Assembly: GCF_019285735.1 (NCBI RefSeq)
Contig: NZ_CP079107.1
Coordinates: 1,736,001-1,800,000 of the forward strand
Origin: Paeniglutamicibacter sp. Y32M11
Lineage (GTDB): Bacteria; Actinomycetota; Actinomycetes; Actinomycetales; Micrococcaceae
Direction: 5' to 3'
Length of the DNA stretch: 64,000 bases
Positions 11,235 to 38,695 of the stretch are shown in pieces (the stretch's first letter is position 1; each line of letters opens with the position of its first letter). Under the pieces are notes generated by a model, which saw only the letters and a list, made by a program, of their open reading frames with translations, had not been told where the DNA came from and made no database searches. Position numbers and translations under genes: made by a program.

Positions 11235-11864
11235 TTGGCTATTTATACCTTGCCTGAGCTGCAGTACGATTACGCCGCTTTGGAGCCGAATATTTCGGCG
11301 CGGATCATGGAGCTGCACCACTCCAAGCACCACGCTACGTATGTTGCTGGGGCGAATACTGCGTTGGAGCAGTTGGCTGAGGCTCGCGAGAAGGGTGAGT
11401 TCGGGGCGATTCCGAAGTTGTCCAAGGATTTGGCGTTCCACTTGGGTGGTCACACCAACCACTCGATTTTCTGGAACAACTTGTCTCCGGAGGGTGGCGA
11501 TAAGCCCGAGGGTGAGTTGGCTGCTGCGATTGATGATGCTTTTGGTTCTTTTGATGCTTTCCGTGCGCACTTCACTGCTGCTGCGATGAGCTTGCAGGGT
11601 TCGGGTTGGGCGTTGTTGGGCTTTGAGGGCTTGGGTGGCCAGTTGGTCATTGAGCAGCTTTATGATCAGCAGGGCAATGTTCCGGTGGCGACGACTCCGT
11701 TGTTGATGTTGGACATGTGGGAGCACGCTTTCTACCTGGATTACGTGAATGTTAAGGCCGACTATGTGAAGGCTTTCTGGAACATTGTGAATTGGGCGGA
11801 TGTGTCGGCTCGTTTTGATGCTGCGCGGGCTGGTGCGGCGAAGCTGATCGTCCCCGGCAAGTAA
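11235..11864 (+). CDS. sodA: Superoxide dismutase, Mn/Fe family
   Basis: The 209-residue enzyme converts superoxide to hydrogen peroxide and oxygen. The metal ligands of the Mn/Fe family are present: H28 in ELHHSKHH, H76 in [11 protein letters not shown]160 and H164 in [13 protein letters not shown]121 in LQGSGW favours the manganese type. Start is TTG 11235, 5 nt after GAGGAG. It lies 58 nt downstream of the SoxR-linked flavin reductase, with a short GACCCC/GGGGTC hairpin between. Codon use is strikingly different from its neighbours: leucine is mostly TTG and many codons end in G or T. A terminator follows at 11885. Confidence 0.96.
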
Positions 11865-34942: not shown

Positions 34943-35587
34943 TTGTCCGAGAAGACTCAGGTAGATTTTTGGTTTGACCCGACCTGCCCATTCGCCTGGG
35001 CCACCTCTCGCTGGGTGCTTGAGGTTAAAAAGGTTCGTGACATCGAGGTCGCGTGGCATGTCATGTCACTTTCGGTGCTCAATGATGGCCGCGCCGACTT
35101 GCCCGAGGAATACCGTGCCCGTGTGGCCCAGGGCTGGGGACCGGTTCGGGTACTGATCGCCGCAGCGCAGGCCCACGGAGATCAGGTACTGGGTGATTTG
35201 TACACCGCCATGGGTGAATTGCTGCACTACGAAAAGGTCAGCGATTACACCGAAGTCATCACCCGCGCACTGGCCACCGCCGGTCTGGAACCAGAACTGG
35301 CTCGGGCAGCAAACGTCACAGATTACGATGACGCGCTGCGCGCCAGCCACGAGACCGGCATTTCGAAGGTGGGCCAAGATGTTGGCACTCCCGTGCTTGC
35401 ACTGAACGGCACGGCGTTCTTCGGCCCGGTCATCACCCGCGTACCAAGCGGTGAAGACGCCGGCAAGCTCTTTGACGCCGCAGTCACCTTGGCCTCGTTC
35501 CCGTACTTCTTTGAGATCAAGCGCAGCCGCACCGAAAGCCCGCAATTCGATGTTGAATCCAGCCAGAATGTGGTTGCCAGCAAGTAA
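34943..35587 (+). CDS. DsbA-like mycothiol-dependent nitroreductase/oxidoreductase (Rv2466c family)
   Basis: A 214-residue thioredoxin-fold protein of the DsbA family, similar to mycobacterial Rv2466c, which uses mycothiol. The active site is [13 protein letters not shown] with C15 only; the resolving cysteine of a CxxC is replaced by Ala, a form that occurs in many actinobacterial members. The cis-Pro loop [10 protein letters not shown] is present. Start is TTG 34943, with AAGGAG 7 nt upstream. It lies after clpX and is followed by a strong hairpin at 35633. In mycobacteria the homologue neighbours rpiB and pepN. Confidence 0.88.
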
Positions 35588-35632
35588 GCGCAAAAGCGTG
35601 TCAATGGCTTAACCCGCCAACAAAGATGGTTT

Positions 35633-35668
35633 GGGGCCGGTGTGCAGAACAATAATTGCACCGGCCCC
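35633..35668 (+). terminator. Terminator after the DsbA-like gene
   Basis: GGGGCCGGTG (35633-35642) pairs with CACCGGCCCC (35659-35668) across a 16-nt AT-rich loop. It directly precedes the promoter at 35669. Confidence 0.75.
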
Positions 35669-35698
35669 TTGCCGTACCCGGGACACGGGGCGTATAAA
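35669..35698 (+). promoter_or_regulatory. Predicted promoter of a structured non-coding RNA
   Basis: TTGCCG (35669-35674), an 18-bp spacer and TATAAA (35693-35698). TATAAA is unusually AT-rich for this genome. The predicted start, around 35704-35706, coincides with the first of a series of hairpins, and no gene with a ribosome site follows on this strand. Confidence 0.6.
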
Positions 35699-35704
35699 AG
35701 TTGT

Positions 35705-35936
35705 ACGCATCACTACCGGAATGATGCGGAATAAAAACCGAATTCGCGGTGACGAACTACTGGAATCTCTTTTAGTTCGGCTGCAGCAGCGATGCAGCAA
35801 GACCCACGCAAAGAGGATTTTGTTCGGTTCTCAAGATCAACGCTGCACGAGAACCACCACCGAGTCGAAGCCCCTCCGACATTCATTTGTCAGCCGAAGG
35901 GGCTTCCCCTCTGTCCGGGACATTTTTGGATTCAGC
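35705..35936 (+). ncRNA. Candidate structured non-coding RNA (unassigned)
   Basis: About 230 nt with no credible reading frame but a chain of perfect short hairpins: CGCATCA/TGATGCG (35706-35728), ACCG/CGGT (about 35737-35750), CGAACTA/TAGTTCG (35753-35779), GCTGCA/TGCAGC (about 35780-35798), GGTTCTC/GAGAACC (35826-35855) and GAAGCCCCT/AGGGGCTTC (35867-35906). A small TGTC/GACA stem followed by TTTTT ends at about 35936. A good promoter lies directly upstream. I do not recognise tmRNA, RNase P, SRP or 6S features (no GAGGAAAGTCC-like or tag-peptide elements). Small open frames overlap on both strands but have no ribosome sites. The exact 3' end is uncertain. Confidence 0.5.
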
Positions 35937-35963
35937 ACCGAACCGCTCCGGCCAAGCAACGAC

Positions 35964-36045
35964 GAAGGGCGCCGCACCCATCTGTGGCGTGTACAAACAC
36001 GCAGCAGATCGGTACGACGCCCTTCATGGTGTCCGTAGGGACACC
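35964..36045 (-). terminator. Two hairpins after valS, one a long rod-like stem
   Basis: The long stem (35964-36025) has paired blocks GAAGGGCG/CGCCCTTC, ACC/GGT, ATCTG/CAGAT and GCGTGT/ACACGC around a 4-nt ACAA tip, with symmetric internal loops of 4x4, 1x1 and 2x2 nt. The second, GGTGTCC/GGACACC (36028-36045), has a 4-nt loop. Both lie just past the valS stop (36059) and likely end that transcript. No T run is seen. Confidence 0.55.
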
Positions 36046-36058
36046 GGCACGCCAATGA

Positions 36059-38695
36059 TTAGGCCTGAACGGTGTCTTCCACCGGAGCCAGCACCACGTC
36101 GCTAACGCTCAGATCGCCATCGGCGGCGACCAGGGTCATGTCGCTGGCGTTACCGGCGGCCAACAAGTCACCCAGACCGGCGCGCAAGAGCTCCAGCGTC
36201 GACTCCGGTGCGGAAATCACACCGGAGAGAACAGCGGTGCGCTGCTTAACCTTCGCCTCGGACTTGGACTTGCGGATACCGGAGAGTGCCTCACCAACGA
36301 TGGGCAACACCGCGGTGTTGGCACCCTCGATGGCACCGGCCAGGTGAGCGGAACCGGGCCATTCGGCGCGGTGAACCGAACCAGCACGCCACCAACCCCA
36401 GACCTCTTCGGTGGCGAAGGGCAGGAATGGGGCGAAGAGTCGCAGCACCGAATCCAGGGTCGTGGCCAAGGTAGCCAAGACGCTGGCCTGCTCCTGATCA
36501 CCACGGGCACCGTAGGCACGATCCTTGATCAGTTCCACGTAGTCATCGGTGAACGACCAGAAGAACGACTCGGTGATATCCAGCGCGCGGGCATAGTCGT
36601 AGGCATCAAAGGCGCGGGTGGCGTCGTCGATGACCTGCGACAAGCGAGCGAGCAGGGACTTGTCCAGACCATTGGTGATGATCGAGGCATCCCCGGAAAT
36701 GACGTTGGCCTCGGTAGCGCCGAGGTTCAACACGAACTTCGAAGCATTGAGGATCTTGATCGCCAGGCGGCGGCCGATCTTCATCTGGTTGATCTCGTAC
36801 GCGGTGTCCGCGCCCAGCTTGGCGCTGGCGGCCCAGTAACGCACGGCATCGGAACCATAGTCGTTCAGCACGTCGGTGGGGACCACCACGTTGCCCTTGG
36901 ACTTGGACATCTTCTTACGATCCGGATCCAGGATCCAGCCGGAGATCGCCGCGTGCTTCCACGGGGCCACATCGTGCAGCGCGTCGGCGCGCACGGCCGT
37001 CGAGAAGAGCCAGGTGCGGATGATGTCGTGACCCTGCGGGCGCAGGTCAAACGGGAAGACCTTGGCGAAGAAGTCCTCATCGCGGCTCCAACGACCAACA
37101 ATCTGCGGGGTCAACGAGCTCGTGGCCCAGGTATCAAGCACGTCGGCATCCCCGGCGAAGCCGCCGGCAACATTGCGCTGTGCCTCGCTGAAGCCCGGTG
37201 CGGTATCCGCGGCCGGGTCAACCGGCAGCATCTCATCGGTGGGCAGGATCGGGTGCTCGTAGTCGGGTTCACCGGAGGCATCCAGTGGGTACCAGACCGG
37301 CACCGGCACGCCGAAGAAGCGCTGGCGGGAAACCAACCAGTCACCGTTGAGGCCGGAGATCCAGTTTTCATAGCGTGAGCGCATGAACGCCGGGTGGAAC
37401 TCGATCTGCTCGCCACGCTTGATCAAGCGGGCGCGGCGTTCCTCGTCGCGTCCACCATTGCGGATGTACCACTGGCGTGAGGAAACAATTTCCAGGGGCT
37501 TGTCGCCCTTTTCGAAGAAGTTCACCGGGTGGGAGATCTTCTTCGGCTCGCCATCGAGCAGGTTGGCGGCAATCAGGAGATCAACAACGACCTCCTTGGC
37601 GGAGAACACGGTCTTACCGGCGATGGCTGCGTAGGCTTCGGCGCCGGCCTCGGTGGTGATCCACTCCGGGGTCTCGGCGATCACGCGGCCGTCGCGGCCG
37701 ATGATGGCGCGGGTCGGCAGCTGCAGTTCACGCCACCAGATGACGTCGGTCAAATCGCCGAAGGTACACACCATCGCGATGCCCGAACCCTTGTCGGCCT
37801 TGGCCAACGGGTGTGGGTAAACGGTGACCGGTACATCAAAGAGCGGGGAGGTGACGGTCTTGCCGAAGAGCGGCTTGTAACGCTCATCGTCGGGGTTCGC
37901 TACCAGAGCTGCGCAGGCGGCCAACAGTTCGGGACGGGTGGTCTCGATGAAGATCTGCGTGCCATCTTCGGCGGTGAATGGGTAACGGTAGTACGCTCCG
38001 GGCATCTCGCGGTCTTCGAGCTCGGCCTGGGCCACGGCGGTGCGGAAGGTCACGTCCCACAAGGTGGGCGCCTCGGACATGTAAGCGTCGCCGGCGGCCA
38101 GGTTGGCCAGGAAGCCACGCTGCGAAACCGCGCGCGAGACATCGTCGATGGTGCGGTAGGTCAAATCCCAGTCAACGGACAGGCCCAGGGTGGAGAAGAG
38201 GTGCTCAAAGACCTTCTCGTCCTCCACCGCCAGCTCTTCACACAGCTCGATGAAGTTCTTGCGGCTCACGACATCCCAGTCGCGCTGGTTCTTCGCCGGA
38301 GTGGCCGGCGGGCGGTAACCCTCAACGTAGGCGTACGTTGGGTCGCAACGCACACCGTAGAAGTTCTGCACGCGACGCTCGGTGGGCAGACCATTGTCGT
38401 CCCAGCCCATCGGGTAGAACACGTTTTTACCGTTCATCCGCTGGTAGCGGGCCAGCACATCGGTCTGCGTGTAGGAGAACATGTGTCCCACGTGCAGGGA
38501 TCCCGACGCCGTCGGTGGGGGAGTGTCGATCGAGTAGACCTGCTCGCGCGTGGTCTCGGTGTTGAATTTGTAGGTGCCTTGTTCGCGCCAGCGGGCGCCG
38601 AGGCGTTCCTCGAGGCCCTCAAGTACGGGCTTGTCGGGAACGGAAACGATGACGGGCGTGTCTGTGCCCAAGGTGTCTTCTGCCATGTTCCCCAT
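36059..38695 (-). CDS. valS: Valine-tRNA ligase
   Basis: An 878-residue class I synthetase. The HIGH motif appears as HVGH (residues 68-71, in PPPTASGSLHVGHMFSYTQ) and the second signature as KMSKS (595-599, followed by KGN). The editing domain has ETTRPELLAACAALVANP. The sequence style, with CDPTYAYVEGY and NFIELCEEL, is the archaeal-like ValRS form used by many actinobacteria. A C-terminal coiled coil is short or absent. The start may be ATG 38695 or 38686. Large open frames on the opposite strand are shadows of this gene. Confidence 0.96.
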   Translation of the reverse strand: MGNMAEDTLGTDTPVIVSVPDKPVLEGLEERLGARWREQGTYKFNTETTREQVYSIDTPPPTASGSLHVGHMFSYTQTDVLARYQRMNGKNVFYPMGWDDNGLPTERRVQNFYGVRCDPTYAYVEGYRPPATPAKNQRDWDVVSRKNFIELCEELAVEDEKVFEHLFSTLGLSVDWDLTYRTIDDVSRAVSQRGFLANLAAGDAYMSEAPTLWDVTFRTAVAQAELEDREMPGAYYRYPFTAEDGTQIFIETTRPELLAACAALVANPDDERYKPLFGKTVTSPLFDVPVTVYPHPLAKADKGSGIAMVCTFGDLTDVIWWRELQLPTRAIIGRDGRVIAETPEWITTEAGAEAYAAIAGKTVFSAKEVVVDLLIAANLLDGEPKKISHPVNFFEKGDKPLEIVSSRQWYIRNGGRDEERRARLIKRGEQIEFHPAFMRSRYENWISGLNGDWLVSRQRFFGVPVPVWYPLDASGEPDYEHPILPTDEMLPVDPAADTAPGFSEAQRNVAGGFAGDADVLDTWATSSLTPQIVGRWSRDEDFFAKVFPFDLRPQGHDIIRTWLFSTAVRADALHDVAPWKHAAISGWILDPDRKKMSKSKGNVVVPTDVLNDYGSDAVRYWAASAKLGADTAYEINQMKIGRRLAIKILNASKFVLNLGATEANVISGDASIITNGLDKSLLARLSQVIDDATRAFDAYDYARALDITESFFWSFTDDYVELIKDRAYGARGDQEQASVLATLATTLDSVLRLFAPFLPFATEEVWGWWRAGSVHRAEWPGSAHLAGAIEGANTAVLPIVGEALSGIRKSKSEAKVKQRTAVLSGVISAPESTLELLRAGLGDLLAAGNASDMTLVAADGDLSVSDVVLAPVEDTVQA

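Follow-up and report, generated by a model that had tools for sequence, protein, structure and literature searches.

The interval between a DsbA-like gene and valS in Paeniglutamicibacter sp. Y32M11 contains a candidate RNA that is conserved, is preceded on the plus strand by a promoter-like region, can be folded into helices P1 to P7 with kissing loops, encodes no conserved peptide and has no gene behind it. We consider it about an even bet that this is a free-standing structured non-coding RNA gene, whose product would act in trans as a protein-binding scaffold (RNP) with a kissing-locked fold and not by pairing with mRNA. A preliminary description of the locus had proposed an independent, unassigned structured RNA gene with its own promoter. 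This proposal is supported by copies in nine genera, covariation, the promoter-like pattern, a relocated copy and the lack of an Rfam match.

Within the analysed window, a stretch of 64,000 nt, the interval measures 471 nt (35588-36058), in agreement with the earlier estimate of about 470 nt. The DsbA-like gene on the plus strand and valS on the minus strand converge on it, and clpX sits upstream of the DsbA-like gene, whose product is 96% identical to its counterpart in Paeniglutamicibacter terrestris, the nearest named relative found. The earlier statement that the interval holds no credible gene also stands: a 135-aa frame with a TTG start exists (35631-36038), yet not one frame stays open across the RNA throughout the set of 13 congeneric sequences. 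A protein-coding reading was rejected from the stop and indel counts in these 13 congeners, in which no frame is kept. The coordinates of all features are listed in Table 1.

Table 1. Features of the dsbA-valS interval and of the relocated copies (window positions unless a locus is given)
Feature	Position	Strand	Basis
Upstream DsbA-like gene, Pfam PF22234, Rv2466c-like (mycothiol-dependent nitroreductase)	34943..35587	+	Pfam E 2.7e-82
Terminator-like hairpin behind the DsbA-like gene, directly next to the -35 element	35633..35668	+	10-bp perfect arms
-35 element TTGCCG	35669..35674	+	comparison of upstreams
Inverted repeat GCGTA-N9-TACGC over the -10 element and start site, possible operator (putative function)	35690..35708	.	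read directly from sequence
-10 element TATAAA	35693..35698	+	comparison of upstreams
Candidate RNA, about 213 nt (about 200-240 in range)	35705..35917	+	ends deduced from conservation and promoter spacing
P1, 5'-terminal hairpin	35706..35728	+	first 30 nt < -3 kcal/mol in 44/44 representatives
P2, long-range stem, 35731-35739 with 35815-35823	35731..35823	+	6/8 pairs with double changes, 95.4% of cells paired
P3, closing stem of the three-way junction, 35743-35749 with 35804-35811	35743..35811	+	covariation across genera
P4 hairpin, most variable arm between genera	35753..35779	+	4/10 pairs with double changes, 90.8% of cells paired
P5 hairpin, loop is one kissing side	35780..35798	+	86.7% of cells paired across genera
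Kissing helix, 6 bp, 35786-35791 with 35841-35846	35786..35846	+	98.1% of 210 cells paired
AAGAC in the junction, longest family-wide conserved unpaired run (5 nt)	35799..35803	+	at least 85% of 35 sequences
P6 hairpin, loop is the other kissing side	35826..35855	+	85.2% of cells paired across genera
P7, hairpin at the 3' end with hardly any variation, may be a bidirectional terminator	35861..35912	+	10/16 pairs never vary
Long hairpin 3' of valS, probable valS terminator, outside the RNA	35959..36030	-	34-nt arms, 79%
valS, convergent neighbour	36059..38695	-	ORF and Pfam
Relocated copy beside a universal stress protein gene	L226:9527-9722	-	
Relocated copy beside a universal stress protein gene	L227:9572-9767	-	

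The preliminary description had made its proposal depend on conservation of the interval among relatives. BLASTN against 59 genomes (our own and 58 relatives) gave matches in the own genome and in 13 of the 14 other congeners (14/59 in all), the sole exception being a fragmented genome that is 88% complete, and in none of the 44 genomes of other genera; strong copies were found in nine genera with the covariance models described below. After removal of 8 identical duplicates from the 21 congeneric loci, 13 distinct intervals were aligned, and the intervals of seven further named loci (L023-L029) are identical to aligned ones. The alignment contains a single conserved block, which begins at the -35 element and ends with P7, while the flanks align poorly. 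When ten of the remaining 12 distinct congeners were compared with the window, identity over the RNA region (35705-35917) was 99% in the nearest, 88-93% in five close and 63-79% in four distant congeners. The corresponding values are 95%, 73-77% and 67-72% for the dsbA gene and 88%, 49-57% and 41-50% for its third codon positions. In the five close congeners the upstream flank is 18-49% and the downstream flank 31-34% identical; the latter reaches 22-34% in nine of the ten congeners and 87% in the nearest. By eye, a hairpin is present at the position of 35633-35668 in all 13 aligned intervals. At about the place of the hairpin 35959-36030, most congeners have a different hairpin-like sequence (by eye), and this hairpin weakly matches two other sites of its own genome (E 8.9e-4 and 0.04).

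The -35 and -10 elements directly follow the terminator-like hairpin in the TTGCCG-N18-TATAAA arrangement described before, and the likely start at about 35705 coincides with the first hairpin (from 35706), again as proposed. A consensus scanner reported neither a promoter-like nor a terminator-like site in the interval, its -10 rule demanding T at position 6; the promoter assignment rests on the comparison between genomes. The pattern TTGNNN-N16-19-NANNNT occurs upstream of 62 of 84 RNAs (the set of 86 without two truncated matches), compared to 8.7 (maximum 16) for mononucleotide-shuffled upstreams, and in 44 of those 62 the -10 element lies exactly 7 nt from the first RNA base. When similar upstreams are merged, the pattern is seen in 38 of 49, compared to 5.1 for shuffles. 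The end of the hairpin abuts the -35 element in Paeniglutamicibacter and, by eye, in other genera. Dyads similar to the inverted repeat over the start site (GTATA...TATAC) are seen in another genus. RNA polymerase would be expected to start at about 35705. At the 3' side, the T run placed earlier near 35936 is actually located at 35923-35927 and is not conserved; conservation stops at about 35912-35917, and P7 is not followed by a U run on the plus strand in Paeniglutamicibacter. The RNA presumably ends at P7, which may equally stop transcription that comes from valS.

Folding of the single strand 35700-35940 gives -80.5 kcal/mol (z -3.07), and none of 200 shuffles folded as well. The preliminary description counted at least six consecutive perfect hairpins; this has to be revised to five local hairpins, with internal loops in P4 and P7. 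It also overlooked the long-range P2/P3 stem (35731-35749 with 35804-35823) and the loop-loop contact. For covariation analysis 87 reference RNAs (86 distinct) were reduced to 44 that are less than 92% identical and at least 195 nt long, and 35 of these make up alignment A3; the other 9 are longer RNAs in which the P4 arm is extended. The homologues were found with the covariance models R1 and R2, which are biased towards their own structures; alignments A1 and A3 are plain MAFFT alignments that were not fitted to a model. In the sequences of the genus, pairing is seen in 96.2% of 832 cells and double changes in 19 of the 64 predicted pairs (8.1 in shuffles, 2-8 in slid versions); across genera (A3, 35 sequences) these figures are 94.2% of 1645 cells and 32 of 48 pairs (23.6 in shuffles, 7-12 in slid versions), where the shuffles ignore relatedness. 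One of five measures, the number of further pair types, is no higher than in shuffles, with 144 of 500 (genus) and 103 of 500 (across genera) reaching the count. Stems that are not maintained among relatives had been named as an argument against the RNA; instead, the helices covary both in the genus and across genera, and the kissing helix is kept.

The contact between the P5 and P6 loops was spotted by eye; folding programs, which predict nested pairs only, would not have proposed it. All six pairs of the kissing helix show double changes, whereas slid versions are 17-60% paired with 0-2 such pairs. Over the wider set of RNAs, pairing is found in 511 of 516 cells, with all six pairs formed in 81 of 86 RNAs and at least five in 86 of 86. 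The six kissing pairs are also kept in all 9 RNAs with a long P4 arm that are left out of A3. This contact is predicted to lock the junction into a compact fold, and it could also be intermolecular, joining two molecules.

The RNA lies between dsbA and valS in 36 of 36 longer loci (30/30, 2/2 of genus g5 and 4/4 that were re-fetched longer), relocated copies apart, and clpX is also within reach in 27 of the 30. In 51 loci with 300-nt flanks, a lenient tblastn search detected both neighbours in 30, one in 14 and neither in 7; four of these seven were re-fetched longer, all showing dsbA and valS. The start of the RNA directly after the dsbA terminator would suit a riboswitch or other cis-acting leader, and likewise a terminator region that is extended and has no function of its own. 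This reading is barely credible, as the next gene here is convergent and the RNA is tied to neither neighbour: in L068 it is still beside dsbA with valS about 2.4 kb away, and in L052 it is 0.5 kb from valS with dsbA about 1.9 kb away. Moreover, covariation that includes a loop-loop helix is not expected of a spacer. A T-box leader of valS was considered and rejected, since the RNA is convergent at the 3' end of valS and not upstream and co-directional, and no model matched.

Two of 295 genomes, both of Arthrobacter type, harbour a second copy of the RNA (G249, E 6.3e-15; G204, E 2.4e-16) with no clpX, dsbA or valS nearby. The block common to both copies extends from 7 nt upstream of the -35 element to within P7 and is 94.9% identical over 233 nt. 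Both sites also have in common a universal stress protein stretch (Pfam Usp, 83.8% over 494 nt), and nothing else is common to the 19-kb surroundings at E<=1e-10. In both genomes the stress-protein gene is upstream of the relocated RNA on the same strand. What was kept is the plus-strand promoter-like region together with the RNA, which supports the strand, the boundaries and an action in trans. Against plasmids, the relocated stretch matches only in its universal stress protein part. In L227 an Hsp20-like gene is located nearby (11306-11773, by eye).

Assignment of the strand rests on the promoter-like region and the relocated copies because the minus strand folds more stably, with alifold values of -111.5 versus -94.9 for A1 and -97.8 versus -82.0 for A3, the difference being due chiefly to P7 and P1. 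Wobble cells are divided between the strands: A3 has 41 A.C (17 in one pair) and 26 G.U cells, A1 has 12 A.C and 29 G.U cells. It is thus conceivable that the selected structure belongs to the minus strand, i.e. to the 3' region of the valS transcript or to a minus-strand RNA. This would fit the folding energies as well as the conserved C.A mismatches of P7 across genera, which turn into G.U pairs on the minus strand, and the Arthrobacter locus L066, where about 27 nt separate the valS stop from P7 and the minus strand continues behind P7 with GACTTTT. We nevertheless regard a minus-strand structure as very unlikely. The promoter-like pattern is found on the minus-strand side of P7 in only 7 of 84 cases, the sequence beyond P7 is unconserved (the 22-34% given above), and in several loci 2 kb or more separate P7 from valS. 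The relocated block includes the plus-strand promoter-like region and begins inside P7, and a good minus-strand terminator in P7 would halt transcripts before they reach P6 to P1. The P7 hairpin scores on the reverse strand as well, and it is possibly a bidirectional terminator, perhaps shared with valS in Arthrobacter. Such a terminator would account for the extra stability of the minus strand with no need for a minus-strand RNA.

In line with the preliminary description, which recognised no known family in the RNA, no Rfam 15 model matches the interval at E<=0.1, and the best match (0.13) is a microRNA model far below its cut-off on the valS-side hairpin. Searching the whole window at gathering cut-offs returned 3 tRNAs only, and the 7 weak matches obtained for 35500-36200 at E<=10 all stay below their cut-offs. 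The same holds for 11 matches in 20 homologous loci at E<=1, two of which are on the reverse strand of P7. What was found corresponds to the general description of an independent bacterial ncRNA gene: a promoter-like region upstream, no conserved reading frame, conserved structure and a relocated copy. We conclude that the candidate forms a new family. It would be an independent structured ncRNA gene, which is a kind already known; its fold is unusual, and we assign it to none of the known families that were compared. Orphan structured RNAs such as raiA-type motifs combine an elaborate covarying fold with loop-loop pairing, and their function is not known. The RNA described here resembles them in both structural respects; it differs in that no Rfam 15 family reaches its cut-off on the RNA or on the 20 related loci. 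In a literature search that reached neither most subscription journals nor any supplements, no description of this RNA and no sRNA study of the Arthrobacter-type bacteria, which are common in soil, was found. The terms Arthrobacter, Micrococc-, valS and clpX are absent from the main texts of PMC11109978, PMC8632094 and PMC6429828.

6S RNA has a closing stem of paired 5' and 3' ends and one long bulged stem with a central bubble, and binds the sigma70-RNA polymerase holoenzyme, while Ms1 binds the RNA polymerase core. Like 6S (RF00013), the candidate is a conserved, structured RNA about 200 nt long that has a free-standing gene of its own in an intergenic region. In contrast to 6S, its predicted ends form the separate hairpins P1 and P7, its core is a three-way junction with a kissing loop, and the RF00013 model matches neither the interval nor the rest of the own genome. 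At E<=0.001 this model detected 6S in 0 of 100 family genomes and in 4 of 14 controls. Ms1 is likewise actinobacterial, intergenic, syntenic and a proposed stand-in for 6S. According to PMC9130861 and PMC11077062 it is about 300 nt long and flanked by an HAD-IB hydrolase and an oxidoreductase-type gene. By this description of length and flanks it is set apart from the RNA studied here, which is about 210 nt long and flanked by clpX and the Rv2466c-like gene on one side and valS on the other; the Rv2466c-like gene could be worded as an oxidoreductase, but the other flank is valS and there is no HAD hydrolase. CoRP RNA, described in 2024, is another lineage-restricted structured RNA of actinobacteria. 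In PMC11077062 it is given as 516 nt long, with tRNA-gene flanks and close homologues in Corynebacterium only, so that by description its length and flanks differ from those of our candidate.

These comparisons raise the question of whether the RNA is a functional analogue of 6S, Ms1 or CoRP that binds RNA polymerase and tunes transcription, which would be a special case of the RNP reading. The failure to detect 6S in the family genomes and the expectation in PMC11077062 that further classes of abundant RNAP-bound RNA exist, with Micrococcus luteus named as lacking known ones, point in this direction. The architecture, however, is unlike that of 6S, and a table in PMC9130861 names Arthrobacter, apparently among the genera that have a candidate for Ms1, so that the niche may already be taken. 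We therefore hold such an analogue to be unlikely. A broader version, in which the candidate is a new global-regulator RNA of Micrococcaceae, a kissing-locked scaffold on RNA polymerase or another central factor of stress or translation that takes the place of 6S and has a second copy beside a stress-protein gene in some strains, is similarly doubtful. RNA polymerase is an attractive, unsupported candidate for the protein partner, and the count of 0 of 100 for 6S does not show that the candidate RNA has replaced it. If another RNA takes over the task of 6S in Micrococcaceae, the RNA described here is one candidate for it.

The length, the promoter and the intergenic location are those usual for base-pairing sRNAs. 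As a trans-acting sRNA, the molecule would pair with the ribosome-binding sites of its targets through the P4 loops or an opened C-rich strand of P7, the rest serving for stabilization. The variability of the P4 arm is what a lineage-specific seed would lead one to expect, and P7 does contain C-rich strands. These strands, however, are part of a stem in which 16 pairs were counted, 10 of them without any variation, and unpaired runs conserved throughout the family do not exceed 5 nt. Pairing with mRNA thus seems possible and rather unlikely. Few unpaired positions are conserved, and these are at the junction, while the helices and the loop contact are kept, which makes recognition of the shape by a protein more likely than recognition of the sequence by mRNAs. 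In the preferred reading of a protein-binding scaffold, the compact fold would act in trans by providing the platform for a protein partner in an RNP. The family is supported by covariance, spans nine genera and combines a loop-loop contact with a fixed genomic locus and, upstream, a promoter-like region; it provides a concrete object for pull-down, deletion and structural work.

A total of 295 genomes of Micrococcaceae were searched. Covariance model R1, built from the genus, matched 84 of them at E<=0.1, and R2, built from 35 diverse sequences, matched 92 at E<=0.01 (13 of 32 genera). Strong full-length copies (E<=1.8e-16) are present in 83 of the 295 genomes and 9 of the 32 genera, the other 9 R2 matches being weak. 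As 212 of 295 family genomes have no strong match, the RNA is not required family-wide. No strong copies were detected outside Micrococcaceae in the genomes sampled. With stricter filters, and in overlapping samples, R2 gave matches at E<=0.1 in 27 of 396 genomes of the order (15 of them non-family) and in 10 of 394 genomes of the class (7 non-family). All non-family matches are weak (best E 9.6e-5) and most span P7 alone. Those in G473 and G594 were rejected as a tRNA gene followed by a hairpin, and four or five other weak longer ones (G654, G622, G565, G802) have no clpX, dsbA or valS nearby. Weak second matches in G240 and G281 are not copies, and L074, whose interval is long enough, has no hidden copy with filters off. 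Searches of plasmids, phages and viral contigs (blastn, in one case by the P7 pattern only) returned no copy of the RNA.

Among 72 named loci (L030, L032-L102), 26 are positive with R2, and these are labelled Arthrobacter, Pseudarthrobacter, Sinomonas, Specibacter and, in one case, Sporosarcina; 8 loci labelled Glutamicibacter, a Kocuria locus and a Zhihengliuella locus are negative. In seven loci labelled Arthrobacter, Paenarthrobacter, Renibacterium or Micrococcaceae (L049, L050, L053, L057, L063, L069 and L091) the dsbA-valS gap measures 50-180 nt and gives no RNA match, L091 having a P7-like hairpin only. This represents loss or primary absence, and the RNA is therefore dispensable in some lineages. 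The Sporosarcina label belongs to L084, a record titled Sporosarcina beigongshangi, which carries a Micrococcaceae-type dsbA-RNA locus and is probably mislabelled or contaminated.
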